From Brachybacterium sp. Z12 (GTDB lineage: Bacteria; Actinomycetota; Actinomycetes; Actinomycetales; Dermabacteraceae): DNA of 64,000 bases. Each line of letters starts with the position of its first letter. Positions within the stretch are counted from its first letter, which is position 1. Where the stretch lies: positions 3,162,001 through 3,226,000 of the forward strand of contig NZ_CP060496.1 in NCBI RefSeq assembly GCF_014400405.1, given 5' to 3'. The notes beneath the pieces were generated by a model, which was not told where the DNA came from, did not search any database, and saw only the letters and a list, made by a program, of their open reading frames with translations. Made by a program: the position numbers and the translations under genes. Shown here piece by piece: positions 6,752 through 60,826 of this stretch.

Positions 6752-9099
6752 TCAGTCCCCGGGCACCTCGCGCTCGATCTCCGCGAGCCAGGCCTTCGCC
6801 GCCGCGTCGGACGGCATCCGCCAGTCGCCGCGCGGGGAGAGCGAGCCGCCGGCCAGCACCTTCGGGGCGTTGGGCAACGCGGAGCGCTTGAACTGGTTGG
6901 CGAAGAAGCGGCGGGTGAACACTGTCAGCCAGTGCTTGATCTCCTCACGGGAGTAGGCACGCGCATCGTCCTCGGGGTAGCCGGCCGGCCACTCCCCCGC
7001 CTCGACATCGCCCCAGGCCTGATGGGCGAGGTATGCGATCTTCGCGGGCCCGTCGCCGCGGCGCAGCAGGTGGTAGAGCGTGAAGTCGTGCAGCGCGTAG
7101 GGGCCGATCGAGCTCTCGGTGGACTGCGCCTGCTCGCCCTCACCTGCGGGAATCAGCTCGGGGCTGATCTCGGTGTCGACCACCGACTGCAGCACCTCGG
7201 AGGCGTCGGGGCCGAAGAGGCCTTCGTCGATCACCCAGCGGATCAGGTGCTGGATCAGCGTCTTCGGCACCCCGGCGTTCACGCCGTAATGGGACATGTG
7301 GTCGCCCACCCCGTAGGTGCACCAGCCCAGCGCCAGCTCGGAGAGGTCACCCGTGCCGACCACCATCCCGCCGTGATGATTCGCGAGACGGAACAGGTAG
7401 TCGGTGCGCAGCCCGGCCTGGACGTTCTCGAAGGTGACGTCGTAGACCGCTTCGCCGCCGCCGTAGGGATGCCCCATGTCCTTCAGCATCTGGGTGGCGG
7501 CGGGGCGGATGTCGATGGTCTCGAAGCTCGCCCCCACCGCGCGGGAGAGCAGCTCGGCGTTGGAACGGGTGTGCTCGGTGGTCGCGAAGCCCGGCATCGT
7601 GTAGGTGAGGATCTCGGAGCGGTCGCGGCCCAGCAGGTCCATCGCCCTCGCGCACACCAGCAGCGCATGGGTGGAGTCCAGACCACCGGAGACGCCGAGC
7701 ACCGGCTTGGTGCCGCCGGCCTTGTCCCCGCCGATCGCACTCAGCCGACGCGCCAGTCCCGCCACCTGGATCGAGAACGCCTCGTAGCAGTCCTGGGCCA
7801 GGCGCGCCGGGTCGTCGGGCACGAAGGGGAAACGGTCGAGCTTGCGGCGCAGCGGCCCGGTCGCGGGAGGGCCGACGGGCCGGGAGCCCTCGTCACGGTC
7901 CCAGTCGTCATAGGAGATCCCGTCATCCGAGACGTCCGCCTCCACACCGAACAGCAGCGGCTCCGGCCCGCTCGTGTACTCCTTCACGCGCTCCGCGTGG
8001 GTACGCCGGTTGTCGTCGAAGGTGTTCATGCGGCGGCGCTCGGCGACGATCCGATCCAGGTCGATGTCGGCGATGGTCGCGCGCGGCCCCTGCGGGAAGC
8101 GCTCGGTCTCGCCCAGCAGGTCACCGCATTCGTAGATGAAGGTCTGCCCGTCCCAAGCGAGGTCCGTGGTGGATTCACCCTCGCCCGCGGCCGCGTAGAT
8201 GTACGCGGCCTGCGAGCGGGCGGAGGCGGAGCGGGCCATCAGCTTGCGTTCGTCGGCCCGACCGATCGTGATCGGCGAGCTGGACAGGTTCGCGATCACG
8301 GTCGCGCCGGCGAGCGCGGCCTCGGCCGACGGCGGGATCGGCACCCACAGGTCTTCGCAGATCTCCACGAACAGCGACAGGCCCGGCAGATCCGGCACCG
8401 TGATCAGCTGGTGCGGCGCGAGGGCGTGCTCCTCCGCACCGATGCGCACCCCTCCCAGCAGGCGTCATCGCCCGGGGAGTACCAGCGCCGCTCGGAGAAT
8501 TCGCGATACGTGGGCAGATGCTGCTTGGCCTGGATGCCCAGGATCCGGCCGCGGTGGATGGTGATCGCGCAGTTCAGCAGACGGCTGCGCGAGGGGACCC
8601 GCAGCGGCGCGCCGAGCACAATGATCGGCATCAGCTCACGGCTCGCCTCGACCACGGTGGTGATCGCCTGTTCGGCGGCGTCCAGCAACGGCTCCTGCAG
8701 CACCAGATCCTCGAGCGAGTACCCGGTCAGGGACAGCTCGGGGAACACGGCGAGCCCCACCTGCTGCTCATGCAGGTCGCGCAGCACCTCGAGGTGCCGT
8801 TCGGCGTTGGTGGCCGGATCGGCGAGCGCGACCGGGAGGGTCACAGCGGCGGCGCGCAGGAAGCCGTGGTCGTAGATCGAGGCATGGGGGTCCGACGGGT
8901 CCTCGTGCGTGACCGTGGGCAGCGCCCGGTCAAGGTGGTGGTCGGAGCCGCCGGGGACGTGCTCGCCGGGCACCGGGGCGGAGGCCGCGAGGCCGTGGGT
9001 GTGTGCCGGGGCGGAGCTCGGCGGCTCGTTCTGGCCGGGCGGCTGCGACCGGTCCTGGCCGGAGGGCTGCGGGGCTGCGGGCTGCGACGCGGAGCTCAT
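6752..9099 (-). CDS. nadE: Glutamine-dependent NAD+ synthetase (frameshifted)
   Basis: Makes NAD+ from deamido-NAD with ATP and glutamine-derived ammonia. The N-terminal amidase (nitrilase-type) domain shows the Glu of [10 protein letters not shown], the Lys region [12 protein letters not shown] and the Cys of [10 protein letters not shown]. The C-terminal synthetase domain has the PP-loop SGGLDSTHA and later [11 protein letters not shown]. The frame breaks near 8450, between the Lys and Cys motifs, in a CCCC run; one base restores it. I place the start at the ATG at 9099 ([12 protein letters not shown]). This leaves about 90 low-complexity residues before the conserved core ([11 protein letters not shown]), an extension absent from most NadE proteins. 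A later start is possible. Confidence 0.9.
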
Positions 9100-9263
9100 G
9101 GGCCGAGCGTAATCGAGGCCCAGCGCCGGGTGCGGTGCGGGGCGCGGTTCTGCTGCCATTCGGTCGGTGGTGTCGGGCCCCCGGGAACCGTGCTGGCCCG
9201 GAACCGTGCTGGCCGGAGCCGTGGGCGTCCGAGGCCGTGGCGGCGCGGGGCCGTGGTCAGTTG

Positions 9264-9320
9264 CTGGCGTGGGAGCGACCTCTGCGGAGATATCGGCATA
9301 CACCTCGCCCCCGACGCCAG
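9264..9320. repeat. GATATC-centred palindrome
   Basis: Left arm CTGGCGTGGGAGCGA (9264-9278) pairs with TCGCCCCCGACGCCAG (9305-9320) with one bulge and one mismatch. The centre is GGAGATATCGGC. It sits between divergent nadE and the ABC permease gene; its right arm runs into the first 62-bp repeat. Same family as the palindromes at 6637 and 12932. Confidence 0.7.
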
Positions 9321-9498
9321 TTCTCGACCATCATCCCGCTCCCTCGGCGGCGGCCCCATCCGCCGCCTCGCCCCCGCGCCAGTTCTCGACCATCATCCCG
9401 CTCCCTCGGCGGCGGCCCCATCCGCCGCCTCGCCCCCGCGCCAGTTCTCGACCATCATCCCGCTCCCTCGGCGGCGGCCCCATCCGCCGCCCCGCCCC
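9315..9498. repeat. Three tandem copies of a 62-bp repeat
   Basis: Copies start at 9315, 9377 and 9439, each opening CGCCAGTTCTCGACCATCAT. The first two are essentially identical and the third diverges at its end. Each copy holds a self-complementary GGCGGCGG...CCGCC stretch. The array occupies the divergent intergenic region upstream of the sugar ABC operon. There are no unique spacers, so it is not a CRISPR array. Confidence 0.9.
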
Positions 9499-9604
9499 TC
9501 AGACGCCGCCGACCATCCCCTGACGCACCGCCCCGCTGCGGCTCCCGCCTGCTATACGTTTATCCGATGAGATCGAGCACGACACCGCACATGAGAGGGG
9601 CCGC

Positions 9605-10468
9605 ATGAACTCGCGCAGGCCCCTGCTGGGGTGGTTGCTGATCGCCCCTAGCCTGATCGGGGTGACGGCTTTCCTGATCCTCCCGGTGGTGCTCGCCTTC
9701 GTCGTCTCCCTCTTCCGCTGGGATCTGCTGGGCACCCGCCGGTTCATCGGTCTGGAGAACTACACGACGCTGCTCTCGAGCGGCGCGCTGACCAACTCGC
9801 TGCTGGTCACGGGGATCTTCACGCTGATCTCGGTGCCGGTCTCGCTCGCGCTGGGCCTGGTGCTCGCCACTCAGCTGGTGCGCGCTCTGCCGGGTTCAGC
9901 GATCGTGCGCGTGATCGTGGTGATCCCCTGGGTGTGCGCCCCGCTCGCGCTCGGCGTGGTGTGGAAGTGGATCTTCCAGCCGTCGGTGGGTGCTCTGAAC
10001 CAGATCCTGGGCGTGCGCATCGAATGGCTCACCGATACGTCCCTCGCGCTGCCCGCCGTGGCATTCGTGGCGATCTGGCAGAACGTCGGCTACATCTCGC
10101 TGTTCTTCCAGGCGGGGCTGACCCGCATCCCCGACTCGATCTACGAGGCCGCCCGCATCGACGGCGCCGGCCCCGCCCAGCAGCTGTGGTTCATGACCAT
10201 CCCGCTGCTGCGCCCGACGACGTTCTTCCTCGCGGTCACCCAGGTGGTGGCGAGCTTCCAGGTGTTCGACATGGTCTACGCCCTCACCGGCGGCGGGCCG
10301 CAGCGCCGCACCGAGGTCATCGCCTCCCTGATCTACAACGAGGCCTTCGAGGCCAGCCGTCTGGGCCGCGCGAGCGCGGTCGCGGTGATCCTGTTCCTGC
10401 TGCTGGTGGTCATCACGCTGATCCAACAGCGCTGGTTCTCCCGCCGCATCACCTACGACATGAGCTGA
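9605..10468 (+). CDS. Carbohydrate ABC transporter permease (MalF type)
   Basis: The 287-residue membrane protein has six predicted membrane segments and the cytoplasmic EAA loop EAARIDGAGPAQQ (about residues 180-192) that docks the ATPase. It is the first gene of a three-gene CUT1-type sugar importer; the second permease starts 13 bp downstream. No ATP-binding gene is present, as is usual where a shared MsiK-type ATPase serves several importers. The ATG at 9605 follows a GAGAGGGG purine stretch. The sugar is unknown. Confidence 0.9.
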   Translation: MNSRRPLLGWLLIAPSLIGVTAFLILPVVLAFVVSLFRWDLLGTRRFIGLENYTTLLSSGALTNSLLVTGIFTLISVPVSLALGLVLATQLVRALPGSAIVRVIVVIPWVCAPLALGVVWKWIFQPSVGALNQILGVRIEWLTDTSLALPAVAFVAIWQNVGYISLFFQAGLTRIPDSIYEAARIDGAGPAQQLWFMTIPLLRPTTFFLAVTQVVASFQVFDMVYALTGGGPQRRTEVIASLIYNEAFEASRLGRASAVAVILFLLLVVITLIQQRWFSRRITYDMS

Positions 10469-49791: not shown

Positions 49792-50137
49792 GTCGGCCAA
49801 TGTAAGGCAGGTCGCACGTGCGGGGTCACGATGTGGCCGATCCGAGGGTGAATGTTCACCGAAGGATTGCCCGGCGTCGACGCACGCCGCCCGACGGGCC
49901 GGCCCGGCCTCACCGCCCGGCCTGCATGCCAGCTCGCCAGCCCGCCAGCTCCCGCCGCTCCCCCACGGAGCGGTACCATCCACACAGCGCGACGCGGCGA
50001 TCCCGTACTCGTGCGCTCTCGGCCCGCCCACCCCCGCGGACCTCCATCGCCCTCGGGCACGTCCCTTCCCCGGGCCGTCATCGTCGACGGCTCCCACCCC
50101 GCGCCGCCTCGCGGCGCAGCTCCCTCGGAGGCACACC
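49792..50137. other. Divergent intergenic region between the M20 gene and metP
   Basis: 346 bp of GC-rich DNA without a convincing gene, hairpin or named regulatory motif. It should hold the promoters of both divergent operons. The metP ribosome site GGAGG (about 50127-50131) is at its right end. Confidence 0.5.
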
Positions 50138-51785
50138 GTGAGTGCATCGACCTCATCCGCCGGCGCCGCAGCGCCGAGCGCCGATCGCGGCGCCTTCTCC
50201 GGCCGCACCGCCTTCATCTTCGCGGCCATCGGCTCCGCCGTCGGCCTCGGCAACATCTGGCGCTTCCCCGCGGTCGCCTACGAGAACGGCGGCGGCGCGT
50301 TCATCCTGCCGTATCTCGTCGCGCTGCTGACCGCGGGCATCCCGCTGCTCTTCCTCGACTACGCGATCGGGCACCGCTGGCGCGGCTCCGCCCCCGCCGC
50401 CTGGCGCCGCTTCCGCCGCTGGACCGAGTTCATCGGCTGGTGGCAGGTGCTGATCGCCCTGATCATCGCGCTGTACTACGCGCTGATCCTGGCGTGGGCG
50501 ACGAACTACACGATCTTCTCCCTCGACCAGCGCTGGGACTCCCACCCGGAGGGGGCCGACGGCTTCTTCGGTGAGTACACCCAGGCGCTCGGCGGCGCGG
50601 ACGTGACCGTCTCCTTCGACTACGTCCCCGCAGTGCTGATCTCCATGCTGGTGGTGTGGATCGCGGTGATCGTGGTGATGGCGCTCGGCGTGCAGAAGGG
50701 CATCGCCGCCAGCTCGATCATCTTCATCCCTCTGCTGATCGTCATGTTCATCATCCTGGTGGTGCGCTCGCTGTTCCTGCCCGGCGCGATCGACGGCCTG
50801 GACGCCTTCTTCCGACCGAACTGGGCCGCGCTCGCGAAGCCGGGAGTGTGGATCGCTGCCTACGGGCAGATCTTCTTCTCGCTGTCGGTGGCCTTCGGCA
50901 TCATGCTCACCTATTCCTCGTACCTGAAGAAGAAGACGGACCTCACCGGCTCCGGCCTGGTGGTGGGCTTCGCGAACTCGAGCTTCGAGATCCTGTGCGG
51001 CATCGGCGTGTTCTCGGCGCTGGGCTTCATGGCGCAGGCACAGGGCGTCGCGGTCGACGAGGTCGTCGACGACGGTGTGGGCCTGGCGTTCATCGCCTTC
51101 CCCACGATCATCTCCGAGGCCCCGGCCGGCGCGCTGATCGGCGTGCTGTTCTTCGGCTCCCTGGTGCTCGCGGGCTTCACCTCCCTGATCTCGATCGTCG
51201 AGGTGGTCATCGCCGCGGTCCAGGACAAGTTCGGCCTGGCCCGCCTCTCCCGACCCTCGTGGTCAGCGTGCCGATGGCCGTGGTCTCGGTGGCGCTGTTC
51301 TCGACCACGATGGGTCTGCCGCTGCTGGACGTGATGGACAAGTGGGCGAACGAGTACGGCATCGTCGCGGCGGCGCTGGTCTCCTCGCTGATCGTCGCCT
51401 TCGTACTGCGGGGCATGCCGACGCTGCGTGATCACCTGAACTTCCGCGGCTCCTTCCACGTCGGCCGCTGGTGGTACGCGTGCGTGGCGATCATCGCCCC
51501 GCTCGTGCTCGGCATCTCCTGATCGGCGGCACCATCGAGCTCGTCACGAGCGGCAAGACCCACTCCGGGTACCCGGGCTGGTTCAACTTCGTGTTCGGCT
51601 GGGTGATGGCGATCGGTCTGGTGGTGGTCGCTATCGGGCTCTCGCTGATCCCGTGGCCCGCCGGCTCGAACCTCTACAAGGCCGACTCCGACGGCGACCC
51701 GATCGCCCCGGAGGCCGTGGCCGGCAAGGGCCTGGTCGTCGTGCCCGAGGCCGAGTCCCCGCACGAGCTGCGCTCGGCCCCGTGA
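50138..51785 (+). CDS. metP: Sodium-dependent NSS-family transporter, MetP-like (two frame breaks)
   Basis: Large subunit of a neurotransmitter:sodium symporter-type importer. GTG start at 50138 after GGAGG. The LeuT-fold motifs are clear: [19 protein letters not shown] near residue 25, [13 protein letters not shown], then [25 protein letters not shown] in the sixth helix region. The frame breaks near 51251 (FGLARLS to [11 protein letters not shown]) and 51521 (APLVLGI to LIGGTIEL); each needs one base. About 549 residues. The 35-residue protein encoded 82 bp downstream matches the MetS small subunit, so it is a MetPS-type methionine/alanine importer. Confidence 0.9.
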
Positions 51786-51867
51786 CAAGGCTGGGCGGCC
51801 GCGCCTCACGGGGCGGCCGACCGCTTCCCCTCCAGACCCTCATCCCCCTCATCCCCCAGGAGTGATC

Positions 51868-51975
51868 ATGTCCTTCGCCTCCATCGTCATGATGATCGTC
51901 GCGATCGTCACCGTCTGGGGCGGCCTCGCCGCCGCCATCATCAACCTGCGCCGTCACCCGGAGACCGACGACTGA
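51868..51975 (+). CDS. metS: MetS-like small subunit of the NSS transporter
   Basis: A 35-residue protein too short for ordinary gene calling: MSFASIVMMIVAIVTVWGGL, then AAAIINLRRHPETDD. One membrane helix is followed by a short basic/acidic tail. In Corynebacterium glutamicum the MetP carrier needs exactly such a small partner, MetS, for methionine/alanine uptake. It follows the large subunit gene by 82 bp and has an AGGAG ribosome site at about 51858-51862. Family assignment is from size, sequence style and position. Confidence 0.85.
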   Translation: MSFASIVMMIVAIVTVWGGLAAAIINLRRHPETDD

Positions 51976-52014
51976 CCTGAGCCGCGGCCGGTCCGGGCTG
52001 GCCCCGGCCCGGTC

Positions 52015-52056
52015 CTGCCCCTGCCCCTGCCCCTGCCCCTGCCCCTGCCCCTGCCC
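52015..52056. repeat. Seven tandem CTGCCC hexamers
   Basis: A simple repeat of CTGCCC (7 copies, perfect) after metS, just before a strong terminator stem. Probably variable in copy number between strains. Confidence 0.9.
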
Positions 52057-52074
52057 CTGACAGCAGCTTTCGAC

Positions 52075-52114
52075 GCCCAGGGACCGATGTCTGATCGCAC
52101 ATCGGTCCCTGGGC
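52075..52114 (+). terminator. Terminator-like hairpin after metS
   Basis: Perfect 16-bp stem: GCCCAGGGACCGATGT (52075-52090) pairs with 52099-52114 around the eight-base loop CTGATCGC, 100 bp after the metS stop. No T-run follows. Confidence 0.75.
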
Positions 52115-52205
52115 TTCGTTCTGCGTGGCAGCGCGGCGGGGCAGCTGGACAGCTGGACGGCTGGACCGGGGTCGCCGCCCGGCCATGCTCGGGGCGTGTC
52201 GTCCG

Positions 52206-52261
52206 CGGGCCTATGGCAGCACTCACTGGTCATATCGCCAGTGCGTGCTGCCATAGGCCCG
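52206..52261. repeat. CATATC-centred long palindrome
   Basis: 24-bp arms (52206-52229 and 52238-52261) match at 23 positions around loop TCATATCG; the centre is TGGTCATATCGCCA. It lies between metS (plus) and ecfT (minus), downstream of the metS terminator. Best preserved of the ATATC family. Confidence 0.9.
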
Positions 52262-52375
52262 TACTCGTCATCTCACCGTGCACCGGCCAGGACCTTGGGG
52301 ATCGAGAAACTGCCAGGGCCGTGGAGTACCGCGCACCGGACGGGGCCGCAGTCCCGCGCCGCGCTCCCCGCCCCC

Positions 52376-53200
52376 TCACCGGTGCAGCGGGAACTGCGCG
52401 CCCAGCCAGTAGGCGCCGATCACGGTGAGCGCGGTCGCGGCGAGCACGGCCACGTCCAACCCGGACACCCGCAGGTAGGCCAGGCGCAGCGTGCGCCCGG
52501 CGGCGTTCTTCGCCCCGTAGGTGAAGCCGCGGGTCTCGAGCGCCTCGACCGTGGTGCGCACGTTCTTGGCGGTGTTGAGCATGATCGGGTAGAACGCGGT
52601 CACCGCCATCACGCACCACTGCCACACCACGCGCCAGCCCAGCAGCCCGCGCCGCTCGGGCGGGGGCGTGGCGCAGCCGCTGTCCCTCGAACACGGTGAC
52701 GTACTCGTCCACCAGGATCGGCAGCATCCGGTACCCGTAGCTGACCCCGAAGGCGAGCAGCTCGGGGCGCGCAGCGCGAGCAGGGCGTCGGAGAGCTTCT
52801 CGGGGTCCAGGGACACGAAGGCCGCCATCGACGCCATCGAGACGGCGCCGAGCTTGAGGTTCAGCTCGGCGAGCGCGATCAGCGTGGTCAGGTCGCCGCC
52901 GAACAGGAACGCGGCGACGAACAGGGCGATCACGTCCGCGCCGAGCCCGATCACGAACAGCCCCAGCACGAGCGGGCCCACCCGGGCGAGGATCACCGAG
53001 ACCACGCCGAGCGCGAAGAACCCGATCAGCACGGTGAGGTTGTGGGTGAACCAGGGCGCGATCGCCATCACCAGGTACCAGGCGATGACCATGCGCGGGT
53101 CCATGCGGGCGAAGAGGCCGCCGCGGGTGGAGTAGGCGGTGCGCAGCAGCTCGAGGCGCACCCAGTCGACGCTGAGCACGTCATGGGTCTTGCGGGCCAT
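52376..53200 (-). CDS. ecfT: ECF transporter transmembrane component EcfT (two compensating frame breaks)
   Basis: The integral T component of an energy-coupling-factor vitamin/metal importer. The C-terminal part has the family block AYWLGAQFPLHR after GFTYGAKN and LETRGF, a charged coupling segment (ALETRGFTYG is the A-x-x-x-RG-type motif). About five membrane helices. The frame is lost at about 52770 (LALR to PELLAFGVSYGYRMLPILV) and returns at about 52676 through a second, two-base change, so the middle (PELLAFGVSYGYRMLP) lies in another frame. About 275 residues. The ATG at 53200 shares its T with the upstream stop (one-base overlap TGATG-type). Confidence 0.85.
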   Translation of the reverse strand: MARKTHDVLSVDWVRLELLRTAYSTRGGLFARMDPRMVIAWYLVMAIAPWFTHNLTVLIGFFALGVVSVILARVGPLVLGLFVIGLGADVIALFVAAFLFGGDLTTLIALAELNLKLGAVSMASMAAFVSLDPEKLSDALLALRAPSCSPSGSATGTGCCRSWWTSTSPCSRDSGCATPPPERRGLLGWRVVWQWCVMAVTAFYPIMLNTAKNVRTTVEALETRGFTYGAKNAAGRTLRLAYLRVSGLDVAVLAATALTVIGAYWLGAQFPLHR

Positions 53201-55053
53201 CAGTGCACCTCCGAAATCGTGGAACGGGGCAGGGGCGGCGCCGGCGTCGGCCGCTCCGGGGCGGAGCCCGGTGGCAGCCAGGTGCGCAGCTCCGCGGCGG
53301 TCAGCGGCAGCGGGTCCAGGCCCAGCTGGTGGGCGATGCGGGCGGCCTGCGGCGGGACCAGACGGGCCCGGGCGGTGAGCTCGGGTCGGGAGAACAGCTC
53401 GCGCGGGGTGAGGTCGGCGAGCACGCGGCCCTGGTCCAGCACGATCACGCGGCTGGCCCAGGAGGCCACGAGCTCCATGTCGTGGGTGGCGACCACGGCG
53501 CAGCGCACGGTCTCGGCGAGGGAGTCGAGCATCCCGGTGACGTCGTGGCGGGAGCGCACGTCCAGGCTCGAGGTGGGCTCGTCGAGCAACAGCAGGGTGG
53601 GCCGCATCGCGAGGCCGATGGCGATGGTGGCGCGGCGCTGCTGGCCGCCGGAGAGCGTGCGACCGTCGCGCGCGGCGAGCTGGTCCAGCCCCACCCGCGT
53701 GATCACCTCGTCGACCCGTGCCTCGGCGTCCGGCACCCTGCGGCCGGTGGGGAAGAGTGCGACGTCGGCCCGCACGGTGTCCTTGAGGAACATCTGCTGG
53801 GGGTGCTGGTAGAGGTAGGCGACGTGGTCGGAGAGCCGTGCGGCGGAGCGGGAGCGGGTGTCGATCCCGTCCACGGTGACGGTGCCCTGGCGAGGCACGA
53901 TCAGGCCGGTCAGCAGCTTCATCAGGGTGGTCTTTCCGGCGCCGTTGGTGCCCACCAGCGCGATCCGCTCCCCCGCCCGCAGGTCGAGCTCGAGGTCCAC
54001 CAGCACGGGGGCGAGGTCACCGGCGACGGTGCGATAGCCGTGGTGGATGCCGCGCAGCGTGGCGACCGGGTCCCCGAGCTCCGCACCCGTCGGCCGCGAG
54101 TCCGCCGTCGGCCACGAACCCGCCGTCGGCTCGGGCCCGGCAGCGCGCTCCCTCACATGCGGCCGCAGCGCCGTCACCGCGGAGGGCACGTCCAGCGCCA
54201 CACTCTCCTCCCCCACCGCGGCGGTGAGCGAGACCGCGTCGGGCGCGGGGATGCCGTGGGCCTCGAGGTCGCCGTGGCGGTCCATCGCCTCCTGTACGCC
54301 CAGGTGCCACACGGGGGCACCGTCGGCCATCAGCACCACCGAGCGGGCGAACTCGGCGATGAACTCGGCGTGGTGCTCGATCGCGATCACGGTGATGCCG
54401 TGCTCCTGGTTCAGGGCGCGCAGGCGCAGGTAGATCTCACGGGCGCGGGCCGGGTCGAGCTCGGCCACGGGCTCATCCACCACGATCACCTCGGGCCGCA
54501 TCGCGAGCACCGCGGCGAGGGCCACCAGGTGTGCCTGCCCGCCGGAGAGCTGCCAGACGAAGCTGTCGCGCAGGTGGGAGATGCCCAGCTGCTCGAGCGC
54601 CTCGTCGGTGCGCTCGCGGTGGTCGGCGTGCCCGAAGTTCAACGGCCCGAAGGCGACCTCGTCGCGGACCGTCGGCCGCACCAGCTGGTTCTGGAAGTCC
54701 TGGTAGACGTAGCCCACGCGGCTCGAGAGCTCCGCGACGGAGGAGTCCCAGGTGTCGATCCCGTTCACGTGCACGGAGCCGGCGAAGTCGCCGTTCCAGT
54801 AGTGCGGGACCAGGCCGTTGAAGGTCTTGCACAGGGTGGTCTTGGCAGAGCCGTTGCCCCCGACCACCGCCACGAAGTCGCCCCGCTGGATCGTGAGATC
54901 GACGTTGCGCAGCGTGTCGCGGTCGGTCCCGGGGTAGCGGAAGGACAGGTCCTCCACCACGATCACGGGGTCCGACGGGGCGGGCGCCGCGGGGGATGCG
55001 GCCGCCGGGGCGACGGTGGGCGGGGCGACGGTGGGCGGGGGAACGGTCTGCAT
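53200..55053 (-). CDS. Fused double ATPase of the ECF transporter (EcfA-EcfA')
   Basis: A 617-residue protein with two nucleotide-binding domains joined by a linker of about 60 residues. Domain 1 (about 30-290): Walker A GGNGSAKTT, where the second Gly of GxGK is Ala, signature LSGGQAHLV, Walker B VIVVDEPVAELDP and IEHHAEF. Domain 2 (about 340-600): GTNGAGKTT, YLYQHPQQMFLKD, LSGGQQRRATIAIGLAM, LLLLDEPTSSLD and THDMELV. Most ECF systems use two separate ATPases; fused pairs occur in actinobacteria (CbiO/YkoD-like). The start is the ATG at 55053; it is coupled to ecfT. Confidence 0.9.
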   Translation of the reverse strand: MQTVPPPTVAPPTVAPAAASPAAPAPSDPVIVVEDLSFRYPGTDRDTLRNVDLTIQRGDFVAVVGGNGSAKTTLCKTFNGLVPHYWNGDFAGSVHVNGIDTWDSSVAELSSRVGYVYQDFQNQLVRPTVRDEVAFGPLNFGHADHRERTDEALEQLGISHLRDSFVWQLSGGQAHLVALAAVLAMRPEVIVVDEPVAELDPARAREIYLRLRALNQEHGITVIAIEHHAEFIAEFARSVVLMADGAPVWHLGVQEAMDRHGDLEAHGIPAPDAVSLTAAVGEESVALDVPSAVTALRPHVRERAAGPEPTAGSWPTADSRPTGAELGDPVATLRGIHHGYRTVAGDLAPVLVDLELDLRAGERIALVGTNGAGKTTLMKLLTGLIVPRQGTVTVDGIDTRSRSAARLSDHVAYLYQHPQQMFLKDTVRADVALFPTGRRVPDAEARVDEVITRVGLDQLAARDGRTLSGGQQRRATIAIGLAMRPTLLLLDEPTSSLDVRSRHDVTGMLDSLAETVRCAVVATHDMELVASWASRVIVLDQGRVLADLTPRELFSRPELTARARLVPPQAARIAHQLGLDPLPLTAAELRTWLPPGSAPERPTPAPPLPRSTISEVH

Positions 55054-55097
55054 GATGCTCCTGGTCTCGGTGTCCGGCGCGTGAGGGCTCCGGCGCC

Positions 55098-56052
55098 TCA
55101 GCGCGCGGAGCCCTCGGCGTCGGAGGCGCGGGGCGTGACGTGGGTGCGGGTGCGAGTGCGGCGGAACAACATCATCGCCACCAGCATCACCAGGGCGATC
55201 GCGGCGACCGAGACCAGCAGGAACCAGTTGCCGAACCGGTCCAGGAAGTCCGGCTCCCACGCCCCGGCGCTGAGGTCGAAGGCCTCGAGGAAGGCGAAGC
55301 CGAAGGAGGAGATCGCGAGCAGCAGGGCGAAGCCGACGAACAGCGGGGTGTTCGGGGCGTCGCCCGGGATCGGCTCGCCGGGCACGCGCGGGCGCATCCC
55401 CATCAGCGGCTCGATCTTGCCGTGCAGGGCGGGGATCAGCCAGATCGCGGGGATCGCGCCGAGCAGGATCCCGCTCATGAGGACGTCCACGCCCAGGCCC
55501 AGGATCTCGAGGGTCAGGATCGACTCGGGCAGGCCCTCGACGTACTCGGCGTCCTCGACGCCGATCCACACCTTGCCGAGGTCCACCACGGCCGAGAGGA
55601 TCTTGTCGATCAGGATGATCGCGACCGCGCCGATCGCGATCTGGACCCGGTTGCGGGGGTTCCGCACGAGCGAGCCGCCGATGTAGATGGCGAGGAACAT
55701 CTGCAGGTAGCCCTCGATCTCGGCGAGGCCGGAGAAGTCACCCATCAGCAGGTCGGTGAACACGATCTCGCCCAGCGGGGGCGCCGAGCGCGGCCCAGAA
55801 CGGGGAGAGCAGCGCCGCCATCGCGAGCGGCACGAAGATCATGTTGGACACGGAGATGTCCACGGGCCCGATCGAGGGGTCCGGGACGATCTCCAGGATG
55901 ATGTTCGACAGCCCGAACAGGGACATCGACAGTACGAAGACCATCAGCTTCTGCGAGGTGGTCAGCTCGGCGCGACGGACGCCGTCGACGACGCCGCGCA
56001 GGGTGCCGCGTCGCTGGTCATCGGCGGGCGGGGCGGGGATCTGGGTGGACAT
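55098..56052 (-). CDS. ECF transporter substrate-binding (S) component, unusually long (frame break)
   Basis: First gene of the ECF operon, about 317 residues versus about 180-210 for most S components. Start at the ATG at 56052 with AAGGAG upstream. Membrane segments begin at about residue 35 (KLMVFVLSMSLFGLSNIILE), then VSNMIFVPLAMAALLSPFWAALGAP, YLQMFLAIYIGGSLVRN, a later pair (TLEILGLGVDVLMSGILLGAI) and a C-terminal pair (LFVGFALLLAISSFGFAFL; LLVSVAAIALVMLVAMMLF). The frame breaks near 55783 (two-base type). Position next to EcfA/EcfT supports the S role. The vitamin or metal carried is not predictable. Confidence 0.75.
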
Positions 56053-56219
56053 GGTGACGCTCCTTGGGGGACCGGAGGGGGCTGGTGGGAGGCGGGGTGT
56101 ACTGCGGCGAGGGCGCCGACGACGGTCGGGGCCGGGTCACGGGGCGGCGGCGGACGGACGGGCGAGGGGGCTGAACCGGCTGAGCGGGCAGCGGCTCAGG
56201 TCATCAGGTCATCAGGGCA

Positions 56220-57051
56220 TCAGCGCGCCCCAGCCGGCAGCAGCGCGGAGAGCACGTCGATGACCTGGGCCGGGGAGTCGAGCACATGGTCGGCGTCGCC
56301 GCCGGCCAGCGCGGCCTCGAGGAGCTCGTCGGAGTCCTTGCCGCCGCGCAGCAGGCAGATCGTGCCGATGCCGGCGTCGCGGCCTCCGCGGCCGTCGTTG
56401 AGCGCCTTGTCGCCGACGTAGACGACGTCGGCCCGGTCGGTGCTGAGCCCGGCGAGGGCGGCCTCGAAGATCGCACCGCCGGGCTTGCGCACCCCGACCT
56501 CGTCGGAGTAGGCGGACGGGCCGATCATCGCGGTCAGACCGTAGCGGCCGAGGATCTCCCGCACCCCGCGGCCGGAGATGGTGTTGGAGACGATGCCGAC
56601 GACGACCCCCTGCTCATGGCACCACCGGATGAGTTCGATCGCGCCGGGGCGCGGAGCGGGCAGGTTCTTGTTCCGGTGCAGCGCGAGGGAGAGCTGCGGG
56701 CCCTCGAGCCGCAGGGCGGCACGCAGCGGTGCGGGCAGATCAGCGCCGACCAGGTCGCCCCAGAGCATGGCCGGGTCGATCTCCTCGTGCCGGTGCGCGG
56801 GGTCGGCGGAGGCGTCGCGGGCCCGCTTGCGGGCGCGGTGGCGGTCCCAGCCCTCCGCGGCGGCGCGCTCGGCGGTGGCCAGGTCGATCGGGCTCCCGAT
56901 CCGCTGGGACAGCGCGAGGATCCGGGCGGCGACCTCGGTGAAGCGCTGCGGATTCGGGGTGGACAGGGTGATCACCCCGCCGTGGTCCAGCAGCAGCGCC
57001 GGGCGGCGTGCGGCCGCGGGGCTCGAAGTCTGGGCCGGGGCGGGCCCCCAT
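56220..57051 (-). CDS. HAD-superfamily hydrolase 2 (frame break near start)
   Basis: Haloacid-dehalogenase-type phosphatase. The nucleophile motif LLLDHGGVITLST keeps the first Asp but has His at the usual second Asp-like site. VVVGIVSNTISGRG (motif II Ser), GVRKPGGAIFEAAL (motif III Lys) and VVYVGDKALNDGRGGRDAG follow. The nucleophile block lies upstream of the first Met of the open frame, so the start must be earlier; I use the ATG at 57051 (MGARPGPDFEPRG), which requires a small indel near 57010. It may instead be fused to HAD 1. It is the second of two related HAD genes. Substrate unknown. Confidence 0.7.
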
Positions 57052-57924
57052 CGGCCGGTACCGGGGCTCCCTCCCCTCGAACGCCTCCCGCAGCGGTGCG
57101 AGCAGGCCCTCCGGGGACTCGAGCACCAGGTCAGGGATGTCGGTGATGCGGAAGGGCGGGTGGTCGGTGCGGCGGTCGCGGGTGATCACCACGGCGCCGA
57201 CGCCGGCGCGGCGCCCGGCGACCACGTCACGGTCCAGGGTGTCTCCGACGTACCAGGCCTCCTGCGGGGTGACGCCCAGCGCCTCGGTGGCCAGGCGGAT
57301 CATGTCCGGATGCGGTTTGCGGATCCCGACCTCGTCGGAGTAGATCTGCACTCCGAAAGCGTCGGCGAGACCGAGATTCTCGAGGATCGTGCGGTGCGCG
57401 CGGCCAGAGTGAGCATTGGAGACGATCCCGAGGCGGATCCCGCGGGTGGCGCATTCGGTGAGCAGCTCGGTGATGCCGGGGCGCAGGTGGTGCTCGGCGA
57501 CCAGGGGCGCCATCGCGGCGAGCAGCTCCTGGGCGTCGAGCGACAGAGCGCTGCGCACGGTCGCCGGCAGGTCTGCGAGCAGGAAGTCCTCGACGATCTC
57601 GCGTGGCTCGAGCTCACGCGGGGCCAGGCGGCGGCTGGCGGCGTTCTTCCACAGCGACAGGGCGGCGCGGCCCACGCGCAGGGAGTCCTCGACCTCGGCG
57701 GTCTCGAGCACGGCGCCGACGGCGCGGGCGCGCTCCACCACGATCTCGGCGAGCTCCCGGGCCCAGGTCACGCGGGAGGTGGTGGAGATGACCACGCCGC
57801 CGAAGTCCAGCAGCAGCGCCTGCGGGGCCGGAGCGGGGGTGCCGGGCCGAGTCGCCGACAGGACGGTGGGGGCGGGTCCGAGGATGGTGGGGCCCGGCTG
57901 CGGGCTGCGAGGCGCAGTGCTCAC
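57052..57924 (-). CDS. HAD-superfamily hydrolase 1
   Basis: First of two related HAD genes. It starts at the GTG at 57924 (MSTAPRSPQPG) with GGAGAG about five bases upstream. The nucleophile motif is ALLLDFGGVVISTTS, followed by a helical cap (residues about 50-150), motif II IRLGIVSNAHSGRAH, motif III SDEVGIRKPHPDMIRLA and motif IV YVGDTLDRDVVAGRRAG. No stop separates it from HAD 2 in the observed frame; the boundary is uncertain and a fused bifunctional protein cannot be excluded. Both lie next to, and divergent from, a LacI-type regulator, suggesting sugar-phosphate metabolism. Confidence 0.75.
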
Positions 57925-58101
57925 GTCTCTCCGATCAGGAAGGGGGACGGCGGGATCCCGACGTCGCATCAGCAACGCTAGGAAGAGACTCCGGTGGCCC
58001 CATGAATTCCCGGTGAACCTCCCGGCACACTTTCGGCTCTGGACCTGAAACTCTTCAGATCTGGAGGTCAACAGGCAGAATTCGTGGTGTAGACCGGTGT
58101 C

Positions 58102-59115
58102 ATGGATCGGATCACGCTCGCGGACGTCGCCCGGGCGGCCGGGGTCTCCTCGGCCTCCGCCTCGATGGCGCTGAACGACCGCCCCGGGGTCTCGCGAGCG
58201 ACCCGGGAGCGAGTGCGCTCCACGGCCAGACGCCTCGGCTACGGCCGACGGGCGCGGGGCGCGGGTCTGATCGGGGTGATCCCCACGGACCTCGGGAACC
58301 CGTATCACACGGATGTCATCGCAGGGATCGAGGCCGAGGCGGAAACGCTCGGGCTCGGCGTGGTCATCGCCCATGGCCGGCGGGACAGCGCCCATCTGGA
58401 GCAGCAGCTGCAGCGGCTGCTCGAGCTCGACGTGGACGGCATCGTCGCGGTGACCACGTGGCTGACCCCACAGGCGCTCGAACCGGCCGGTGCCGCGGTG
58501 CCGGTGGTCGTGATCGGGAGGATGCAGGATGCGGTCCCGGGCACCGATGTGGTGCGCAACCTCGACCAGGTAGGGGCGGCGCTTGCCGTGCGCCACCTGG
58601 TCGAGCACGGGCACCGGCGCCTGGCCCACGTCACCCTCTCCACCCGCCCGGGACCGGCGATGCGGCGGGTGGGCTTCCTCGCGGAGGCCGAGCGGCAGGG
58701 GCTGCGCGAGGGCGTCCAGGTGATCGGCCCCGGCTCCGCCCCCGAGGGCATCGAGCTGCTGCTACGGGCGCTGCGCCGCGGCGATCCCGACGCACCCACC
58801 GCGGTGTTCGCGGCCAATGACATCGCGGCGGTGGAGGTGCTGCACCGCGCCGCCGATCTCGGAGTCCAGGTCCCCGCGCAGCTCAGCGTGGTCGGCTACG
58901 ACTCCTCCGCGGTCGCGCTCACGGTGCGGCCCCACCTGACGAGCGTGAACCAACCCCGCCAGGAGATGGGGAAGCTGGCCGCGCAGATGCTGCGCGAGCG
59001 CCTCGCCGGGCGCCCGCACGACGCCTCCGCGAGCGTCGAGCCGGTGCTGAAGGTCCGCGACTCGACCGGCCCCGGCCCGGCGCTGCGGCAGCGTAGCCCG
59101 GAAGCCGGAGTGTGA
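58102..59115 (+). CDS. LacI-family transcriptional regulator
   Basis: A 337-residue repressor with intact frame. N-terminal HTH: ITLADVARAAGVSSASASMALNDRPGVS, hinge ATRERVRSTARRLGYG. The periplasmic-binding-protein-like domain has GLIGVIPTDLGNPYHTDVIAGIEAEAETLGL, AVRHLVEHGHRRLAHV and AVFAANDIAAVEVLHRAADLGVQVP, ending in the PHLTSVNQPRQEMGKLAAQMLRERL helix typical of sugar-responsive members. It is divergent from the HAD pair (177-bp gap) and probably controls it, perhaps the ECF operon too. The effector sugar is not predictable. Confidence 0.93.
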   Translation: MDRITLADVARAAGVSSASASMALNDRPGVSRATRERVRSTARRLGYGRRARGAGLIGVIPTDLGNPYHTDVIAGIEAEAETLGLGVVIAHGRRDSAHLEQQLQRLLELDVDGIVAVTTWLTPQALEPAGAAVPVVVIGRMQDAVPGTDVVRNLDQVGAALAVRHLVEHGHRRLAHVTLSTRPGPAMRRVGFLAEAERQGLREGVQVIGPGSAPEGIELLLRALRRGDPDAPTAVFAANDIAAVEVLHRAADLGVQVPAQLSVVGYDSSAVALTVRPHLTSVNQPRQEMGKLAAQMLRERLAGRPHDASASVEPVLKVRDSTGPGPALRQRSPEAGV

Positions 59116-59184
59116 CCTGCATCCGCCTGGTTCGCACCACCCCGGGGCGTCGGGTACGCTGATGCCTGCTCTTACGAGAGCGCT

Positions 59185-59268
59185 GGAGGATTCGCATAGC
59201 GGCCTAGTGCGCACGCCTGGAACGCGTGTTGGGTTAACGCCCTCGGGGTTCAAATCCCCCATCCTCCG
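59185..59268 (+). tRNA. tRNA-Ser (anticodon GGA)
   Basis: A full cloverleaf is visible: acceptor GGAGGAT/ATCCTCC with discriminator G, D arm, anticodon stem CACGC/GCGTG with loop CTGGAAC (anticodon GGA), long variable arm of the serine type and T arm GGGGTTCAAATCCCC. The 84-nt length is right for serine. The CCA end is not encoded. It is followed by a terminator hairpin. Confidence 0.96.
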
Positions 59269-59278
59269 CACAGAGAAT

Positions 59279-59316
59279 GGCCCCTGACCTGCGACGATGT
59301 TCGCGGATCGGGGGCC
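59279..59316 (+). terminator. Terminator of the tRNA-Ser gene
   Basis: GGCCCCTGACC pairs with GGATCGGGGGCC with two non-Watson-Crick positions, and an inner GCGA/TCGC stem surrounds a six-base loop. TTTC follows. It begins ten bases after the tRNA. Confidence 0.8.
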
Positions 59317-59582
59317 TTTCACATGCCCGCGCCCGGCTGGCCGCGCGCCGGGCGTCACCTCGGACCGCCCTGCACGCCCTGTCGACCTTGCACACTCGTG
59401 ACCGCATCGGGACCTGGCACATCTCCCACGGAGTCCATGCACGTCAGGGCGTCGGACGCCAGGAGCAGCCACGGCCTCGGCGGCCCTGGCTGGGGGGGGC
59501 GCCGCCGTCTCCGCCCAGCCGAGCGCGGCCTGCGCCGATATCCTGCCCCCAGCAGGGTTGTGACACGAGCGGAGGGGAGCCG

Positions 59583-60826
59583 ATGTCGAGCTCAGGATGG
59601 GGCGGGCAGGGCCAGGGGCCGCAGGACGGGCCGTGGCAGCATGGGGGCCCCAGGACGGACAACCCCCGACGGGGCAGCCTCACGGCGGTGGGCCGAAGGG
59701 CGCCGCGTACGGCGCGACGCCGCCCGCGGCGTGGCAGGCCCAGCCTCCCGGTGGCCCGGGCGGGCCGACAGGCCCGGGATACGGCGGCCCCCAGGGCCCC
59801 CAGGGTCCGAGCTTCCCCGGCGGCAAGCCGCCGCGCAGGGCCCCGTGGGCGCTGATCGGCGTCGCGATGACCTGCGTGCTGGCGATGGTGCTCGTGGTCG
59901 GCGGCGGGCTCACGTACCTCGTGCTGCGCCAGGGCGGGGACGACGTCCCGATCGCGTCGGACACCCCGGCCGAGAGCGCGACGAGCTCCACGGATCCGGC
60001 AACGCCGAGCGAGACGGAGTCCACGACGCCTGCGGACCCCGAGCCCACCGCCTTCGAGCTGGCCGTGCCCTACGACCCTCCGACCGGCAGCCCCGACGAG
60101 CTGTGGGAGATCATGGGGAACAACCCTCTGACCGAGGGCACCCTGCCCACCCTGCCCACCTGCGACCTGCCTGAGACCCCGATCCAGCCGGACGCCGAGG
60201 AGCTCCAGGCCGTGCTGGACGCCTCCGCGACCTGCCTGAACCAGGTCTGGTCCACCGCGAGCTCGGACCGCGGCCTGCCCTGGGTGAGCCCGAAGATCGT
60301 CGTGTACACGCATCCCGAGGTGCCGGCGCAGGCCGCCTGCGACACGGACTTCTCCGCCGACTTCCCCCGGATGTGCAACCTCGACTCCACGCTCTACTGG
60401 CCCGACAGCTACGGGATGGCGCTCGAGCTCACCAACCCCGCGAACGTGCCCGGGGCCTACCTGTGGGACCTCTCGTACGTCTACATGCACGCCGTGCACT
60501 GGAACAGCACGCTGATCGTCTACTTCCAGACCCTGAGGAAGCAGCTCGACGGCACCGACCAGGAGCGCTTCGACGAGTCCTGGCGGCGCTACAACCTGAG
60601 CCAGCAGTGCCTGGCCGCTGCGGCGTCGATGCAGGTCCCCACCGCCGCCGAGCCCGGCCCTGCGCTGCGTGAAGCGCTCACCGATCCGGCCAGCTGGAAC
60701 GAGGGCGAGGCTCCGCGGAACGTCCGCCCCGAGACGCGGGCGATGTGGACCGAACGCGGCTTCGAATCGCAAGGGGATCTGTCCCGGTGCAACACCTGGA
60801 CGGCCGACGTCGATCAGGTGACCTGA
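59583..60826 (+). CDS. Membrane-anchored protein resembling a degenerate neutral zinc metallopeptidase (frame break)
   Basis: About 414 residues after one base is restored near 59650. The N-terminal 85 residues are Gly/Pro/Gln-rich and cytosolic. One membrane helix (LIGVAMTCVLAMVLVVGGGL) leads to a Ser/Thr/Pro-rich stalk and an extracellular domain with five or six cysteines. The layout (a Cys followed by NLDSTLYWPDS, then YVYMHAVHW, then LSQQCLAAAASMQV) follows the predicted neutral zinc metallopeptidase (YpfJ-like) family. However, the expected HExxH is replaced by MHAVHW, so metal catalysis is unlikely. A non-enzymatic relative is the best reading. Confidence 0.55.

Follow-up and report, generated by a model that had tools for sequence, protein, structure and literature searches.

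A predicted dedicated ECF importer with an extended S component and an alanine in its first ATP site in Brachybacterium sp. Z12 and relatives

In a 64,000-nucleotide stretch of the Brachybacterium sp. Z12 genome (contig NZ_CP060496.1, positions 3,162,001 to 3,226,000; hereafter the window) lies an operon that we read as encoding a complete, dedicated energy-coupling factor (ECF) importer: an S component of a family without a database model, two ATPases (A and A') fused in one chain, and a T component, in a LacI-linked operon with a tandem-HAD gene. The ligand would be small and polar and would be metabolised via cytoplasmic phosphoester cleavage, and the first nucleotide-binding domain (NBD1), which has alanine in place of a Walker A glycine, would still bind ATP. 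We put the probability of this reading as a whole at about 60%. The genes run on the minus strand from 57924 to 52376 in the order tandem HAD, S component, fused double ATPase and CbiQ-type T, with the LacI gene divergent. An initial annotation of the region had proposed an ECF transporter with fused ATPases, which is borne out here; the range it gave, 53200-56052, takes in the ATPase (53200-55053) and the S component and leaves the EcfT gene (52376-53200) outside. We recognised no description of the operon, the S family or the motif in the open-access literature (subscription journals lay outside the search).

The ECF identity of the machinery draws on each of its parts. The window ATPase scores 380 bits against TIGR04520 (cut-off 315) and 360 bits against TIGR04521 (cut-off 330), each summed over two stretches, and the best match of NBD1 in the Protein Data Bank (PDB) is the EcfA2 chain 4mki_B. 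The T component matches PF02361, the CbiQ-type T family, at 39.5 bits in the relative at locus L022 and at 43.3 bits in locus L036 (cut-off 25); the frame-damaged window copy gave no Pfam match at 0.001. With the S fold described below, three features of an ECF transporter are present, namely an S component with the S fold, a CbiQ-type T and two ECF-type ATPases. The closest parallel in layout is with group I ECF transporters, in which a dedicated module likewise encodes S, A, A' and T together and combines the S fold, a CbiQ-type T and two ABC domains; unlike these, the Brachybacterium system has A and A' fused in one chain, two extra C-terminal helices in an S component without a database model, and alanine in the P-loop of NBD1. 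YkoEDC-type systems share with it a fused ATPase and the gene order S, fused A, T. In contrast to them, the S component here matched no Pfam or NCBIfam model over cut-off, whether searched with the two window pieces (E up to 0.001) or with six intact relatives (E up to 10).

The S component was initially described as oversized, at about 317 residues with extra C-terminal helices. Its length does exceed that of solved S components (155-227 residues in the structure comparison), but is normal by sequence for its own family: those relatives that could be read have about 282-353 amino acids, leaving aside open reading frames that run on upstream and with starts trimmed for alignment, and an alignment of 52 holds 29 invariant columns. 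The structure was modelled with AlphaFold2 on the Brachybacterium relative L022 (mean predicted local distance difference test, pLDDT, 78.5) rather than on the frame-broken window copy. In a second-look structural alignment of this model the first 18 rows are S components, with Z 10.4-13.0 over residues about 23-232, and the next row falls to Z 7.1; since Z below about 13 can mean little for helical bundles, it is this gap that the S-fold call relies on. The entries 4huq_S and 4m58 are here taken to be S components. Foldseek places its best S component at E 0.11 with probability 1.00, and a PDB profile search finds two S components at E 0.14-0.18. Beyond the S fold, residues 232-303 of the model form two further helices, in agreement with the earlier claim. 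On this model the protein is an S-fold core with a conserved C-terminal two-helix extension. It has its core fold in common with the vitamin S components ThiT, FolT, RibU, PanT, BioY and 4huq chain S (Z 10.4-13.0), yet it is only 9-17% identical to them and they do not have the 232-303 extension; according to PMC11109136, S components end at H6. The family is present in Actinobacteria, Bacilli, Lachnospiraceae and haloarchaea, and in the class of the Lachnospiraceae genome G322 it occurs in only 2 of 245 genomes at 1e-20.

The second distinctive feature is the Walker A motif of NBD1, GGNGSAKTTLCK, which contains GNGSAKTT, whereas NBD2 of the window protein and of its nearest relatives has GTNGAGKTT. 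The initial annotation had noted this altered motif and asked whether its codon should read GGC rather than GCC. The change itself holds up, with the codon about 10 bases away from the quoted 54855-54870. On comparative grounds the alanine is genuine and not a sequencing slip, because relatives in independent assemblies share it: at E 1e-100 the ATPase is found in 12 of 38 Brachybacterium genomes (our own included), and all 12 have alanine, encoded by GCC or GCG; across the family GCA occurs as a third codon. Neither a GGC codon nor, after frame correction, an ordinary S length emerges from these comparisons; the relatives have alanine and the length is family-wide. A degenerate DNA pattern for GNGSAKTTL occurs at 10 places, one each in 10 of 297 genomes of the order, and every one is NBD1 of this ATPase family; the glycine version occurs at 22 places in 20 genomes (families not assigned), and this comparison covers one kind of Walker A rather than all ABC proteins.

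Among 48 actinobacterial ATPase rows NBD1 has alanine in 23 and glycine in 25, and NBD2 has glycine in all 48. Beyond Brachybacterium, alanine occurs in Brevibacterium, Yaniella, Nesterenkonia, Jonesia and a contig labelled Rhodococcus yananensis; glycine is found in Demequina, Propionibacteriaceae, Kocuria, Microbacterium, Glycomyces, Nocardia, Actinotalea, Bacilli and two haloarchaea, as well as in all 16 further stretches read (15 haloarchaeal, two being the same genomes again, and one clostridial). On a tree of 57 ATPases the alanine/glycine label has to change at least three times, and well-supported branches force three changes; three are again needed once the motif is masked and two doubtful rows (L027, L072) are removed. 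All could be gains, or losses could be among them. The 48 actinobacterial rows are a subset of the 57, L034, with no taxon in its title, being counted as actinobacterial by its place in the tree. Left out of the tree were L009, L011, L012, L015, L017-L019, L074 and L076-L083, mostly repeats of genomes already in, and no row came from L044 (ATPase frame broken) or from L070 and L073 (NBD1 motif not found). In the tree, Brevibacterium senegalense and Brevibacterium sp. CS2 (L023, L025, L026) have ATPases that fall within the Brachybacterium clade, probably through horizontal transfer of the operon or as mislabelled genomes, and the copy on the contig labelled Rhodococcus yananensis (L062) groups with Yaniella and Nesterenkonia, by transfer or contamination.

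The rest of the ATPase bears on what the alanine may do to the ATP site. The Walker B region reads DEPVAELD in NBD1 and DEPTSSLD in NBD2, so that the catalytic glutamate is kept in both, and each domain of the window protein also has the LSGGQ signature and the switch histidine; these motifs serve ATP binding and hydrolysis in ABC ATPases. Over the 48 actinobacterial rows the only column that cleanly separates the alanine from the glycine group is the alanine/glycine column itself, and a search for a compensating change found none that was clean, the four other flagged columns varying within both groups. Alanine before the P-loop lysine also occurs elsewhere: among MoxR-type AAA+ proteins of the same genome, one of the four loci read (L084, from 1501) has GVPGVAKT, the other three having glycine (five lie over the family cut-off); PDB entry 2r44 has GVPGLAKT; and MCM helicases have alanine there too. 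With catalytic motifs apparently intact in either half and no further column cleanly tracking the change, the site is more probably tuned or tolerated than dead: the NBD1 site would still bind ATP, and the alanine would alter affinity or turnover modestly, if at all, without silencing it.

Short of this, the alanine could be nearly neutral, a drift that a single P-loop position tolerates and that has no bearing on function, in an otherwise ordinary transporter. We consider this a serious possibility, if one that falls below even odds. The missing co-varying column and the alanine in the MoxR-type and 2r44 P-loops are what one would expect of it. Set against it are the repeated change in NBD1 only, the absence of any reversal inside the three alanine clades (23 rows) even though the codons vary, and the fact that the GNGSAKTTL pattern, one kind of Walker A, appears nowhere else in the 297 genomes of the order.

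The opposite possibility, raised by the initial annotation, is that the alanine impairs the NBD1 site, making it low-affinity or non-hydrolysing, so that the transporter would be asymmetric and run on one good site, like some heterodimeric ABC exporters. Confinement of the alanine to NBD1 in the 48 actinobacterial rows and its retention in three clades would fit such a site, and in Ras (G15A) and CFTR (G1249) nucleotide handling is disturbed when the corresponding glycine is changed. Against this stand the catalytic glutamate, signature and switch histidine in both domains, the lack of clean decay or compensation in other ATPase columns, and the alanine at the same place in MoxR-type AAA+ proteins. 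The resemblance to ABC transporters with one degenerate site lies in the sequence asymmetry between the two P-loops; in contrast to them, the Brachybacterium ATPase retains catalytic glutamates in both halves. Loss of the catalytic glutamate is called a hallmark of a degenerate site in the abstract of PMC7544095, and by that usual hallmark we rejected such a site here. The effect of an alanine before the Walker A lysine is not settled in the portions available of PMC9599734 and PMC11959459. We regard the impaired site as doubtful and consider a modest kinetic effect or neutrality likelier than a dead NBD1 site.

Returning to the importer with a still-binding NBD1, its likely ligand can be approached from the S component and from the genes around it. 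In the modelled topology most of the conserved charged residues on the outward face of S are acidic (E54, E95, E111, E113, D157, E166, E169, E182), with one invariant lysine, K160, and the other conserved basic residues (K35, R130, R135, K212, R222) lie on the inner side. As the conserved outer side is acidic, S would take up a small polar molecule, probably amine- or hydroxyl-bearing. This predicted face points to a neutral or cationic ligand, or to one whose main recognition group is not phosphate.

The neighbouring genes differ between lineages. In Actinobacteria the tandem HAD accompanies 42 of 44 loci, 41 times upstream on the same strand and once, in L054, downstream on the opposite one; the loci where it was not found, L034 and L060, start no more than about 600 bases from the S match. 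A single alignment spans both halves in 39 of the 42 matches, and L031, L039 and L053 have shorter best pieces. PF00702, PF13419 and PF13242 match in two stretches of the L022 and L036 tandem HADs, giving a HAD match in both halves. Motif I is D-x-G in 66 domains of 38 loci, as caught by a pattern that requires D-x-G; DxD is the motif I characteristic of HAD phosphatases. A divergent LacI gene is found at 40 of 44 loci, the misses being L031, L034 and L060 (near contig ends) and L054, and the match in L042 is partial, at a contig end. HAD phosphatases and a LacI regulator had been pointed out at the outset: both belong to a conserved arrangement, with the two HADs forming one tandem-HAD gene in relatives. 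Among eight Firmicutes loci a PHP-domain gene follows T in six and an RpiR-type regulator is close by in five; of those without PHP, L065 ends inside the ATPase and L073 shows neither A nor T.

The haloarchaeal sample comprises 15 loci, from 14 of the 15 family-bearing genomes among 145 in the class of the Halopiger genome (G638 left out) and from the Natrialba genome of L069. A ComB-like gene accompanies 12 of them (some 3.5 kb past T in L119), a HisJ-type PHP gene seven and a CbiR-like TIM-barrel gene six, the last two never together, and PHP and TIM barrel seem to replace each other beside the transporter (L111-L126). At least one of the three genes is present in 14 of the 15 loci; L117 ends just after T. 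The neighbour groups come from blastp clustering, and the family names come from three ComB-like, two PHP and two TIM-barrel members. The clostridial locus L124, which the haloarchaea-trained gene caller did not resolve, is outside these counts. Directly 3' of EcfT in Halopiger L071 lies a gene of the aldehyde:ferredoxin oxidoreductase family (8227-9912).

Judged by its gene neighbourhoods, the transporter is apparently associated with phosphoester-type enzymes in three phyla, an association that favours a phosphate link. Because the slot is occupied by different folds that are unrelated to each other, a functional connection is more likely than an inherited one, and metabolism of the ligand would include phosphoester cleavage in the cytoplasm by a co-encoded HAD, PHP, ComB-like or TIM-barrel enzyme. 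An unusual "phosphorylatable" substrate had been suggested earlier; the idea is strengthened by these neighbours, which nevertheless suggest phosphate removal inside the cell rather than phosphorylation. A variant is that the transporter imports an already phosphorylated compound, an organophosphate, whose phosphate the co-encoded enzymes would remove once it is in the cell. The RpiR and LacI regulators, the occurrence in three phyla of phosphoesterase-type neighbours with differing folds, and a conserved gene set in which no kinase was found (not every neighbour was scanned for one) would all suit this idea; the conserved acidic outer face of S with its one invariant lysine does not, and we think it unlikely.

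Several observations weigh against our own reading of a dedicated importer serving a phosphoester pathway. Foldseek returned no match under E 0.001 for the S model, its first row being an unrelated mannose transporter (0.053, probability 0.41), and the extension hairpin is modelled at low confidence, in blocks of about 53-76. The acidic outer face, with one invariant basic residue, speaks against an anionic phosphate ester as ligand. The neighbours are named by family only, with NCBIfam equivalog scores mostly below cut-off (ComB and CbiR included), and the phosphatase activity of the HAD neighbours is putative. Finally, L123 lacks all three phosphoesterase-type genes, alone among the 15 loci from haloarchaea.

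Table 1. Features of the importer locus, in window coordinates.
Feature	Position	Strand	Basis or remark
EcfT (CbiQ-type)	52376..53200	-	tblastn 87% over 275 aa; Pfam CbiQ in intact relative L022
Fused EcfA-EcfA' ATPase, two ABC domains, 617 aa	53200..55053	-	Pfam ABC_tran in two stretches, 8.1e-61
Ala codon GCC replacing glycine before the Walker A lysine of NBD1	54844..54846	-	sequence read and relatives
S component with C-terminal two-helix extension	55098..56052	-	tblastn 92-97% to intact B. massiliense copy, two frames
Tandem HAD-HAD protein	56220..57924	-	tblastn with intact 600-aa relative; Pfam HAD models in both window ORFs (open reading frames) and in two stretches of the relative
LacI-family regulator	58102..59115	+	divergent from operon; Pfam Peripla_BP_3 1.3e-35, LacI 1.2e-11

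The locus (Table 1) has to be read with the quality of its assembly in mind. The source genome is a single contig of 3.51 Mb rated 85.7% complete, and of the named relatives represented by the loci, Brachybacterium massiliense is closest to it (S 91%, ATPase 96%). In the window the S gene occupies two frames, 56052-55771 and 55778-55098, with the frame change around 55771-55778; it had been taken for one gene, which is correct across the break, as comparison with intact relatives shows, though the window itself has two frames. The tandem-HAD gene, single in relatives by tblastn, changes frame between 57044 and 56941. EcfT has an internal out-of-frame stretch near 52640-52760, an estimate judged by eye against the L022 T component. 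By tblastn against an intact relative, a gene at 50141-51782, presumably an SNF-type transporter, has two frame changes. From the S, tandem-HAD and 50141-51782 breaks and the 85.7% completeness in one contig, the assembly looks indel-rich, and the break in S is likely an assembly artefact. That the whole finding is a sequencing artefact (a wrong base in Walker A and a shifted frame in S) might be suspected from this indel-rich-looking assembly, but is highly improbable: it is refuted for Walker A by the alanine in all 12 ATPases of the genus and in other genera, and S is long and intact in relatives, only the frame break being a likely artefact.

Scanned with Rfam at gathering scores, 12 loci had no riboswitch directly upstream of S, A or T; the matches were S-adenosylmethionine (SAM) riboswitches in L067 (3489-3602, minus strand) and L068 (2981-3095, minus strand), tRNAs, and an adenosylcobalamin (AdoCbl) riboswitch in L066 (8743-8892, plus strand), which lies about 200 bases beyond the PHP gene. 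Within window positions 50000-60000 no riboswitch was found, the matches being tRNA and weak microRNA ones, the latter all below gathering score. Inverted repeats sought as a LacI operator in the LacI-HAD gap of six loci (none in two) had no evident common sequence by eye. A tRNA gene (59185-59268) adjoins the LacI gene, and a short repetitive stretch with GQGQGQ-type frames lies downstream of EcfT at about 51950-52190.

A bolder scenario, which we offer as speculation and hold to be improbable, would unite both features in a cross-domain ECF family feeding a phosphoester pathway. Two successive phosphoesterases would finish the imported compound (two HAD domains in Actinobacteria; a ComB-like enzyme plus PHP or TIM barrel in haloarchaea), and the motor would have been made functionally asymmetric in three lineages by the same glycine-to-alanine change in the NBD1 P-loop. 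If true, nature would have supplied matched pairs with which to ask whether an ECF transporter requires both of its ATP sites to be equal.

As regards the dedicated importer itself, an S component without a Pfam or NCBIfam model, present in both bacteria and archaea, would add a conserved hairpin to the S fold. Its alternating phosphoesterase-type neighbours would offer a concrete route to the nutrient imported. Moreover, orthologues that differ at one P-loop residue, with no other column cleanly following, could allow a direct test of whether the ATP sites of ECF transporters work equally.

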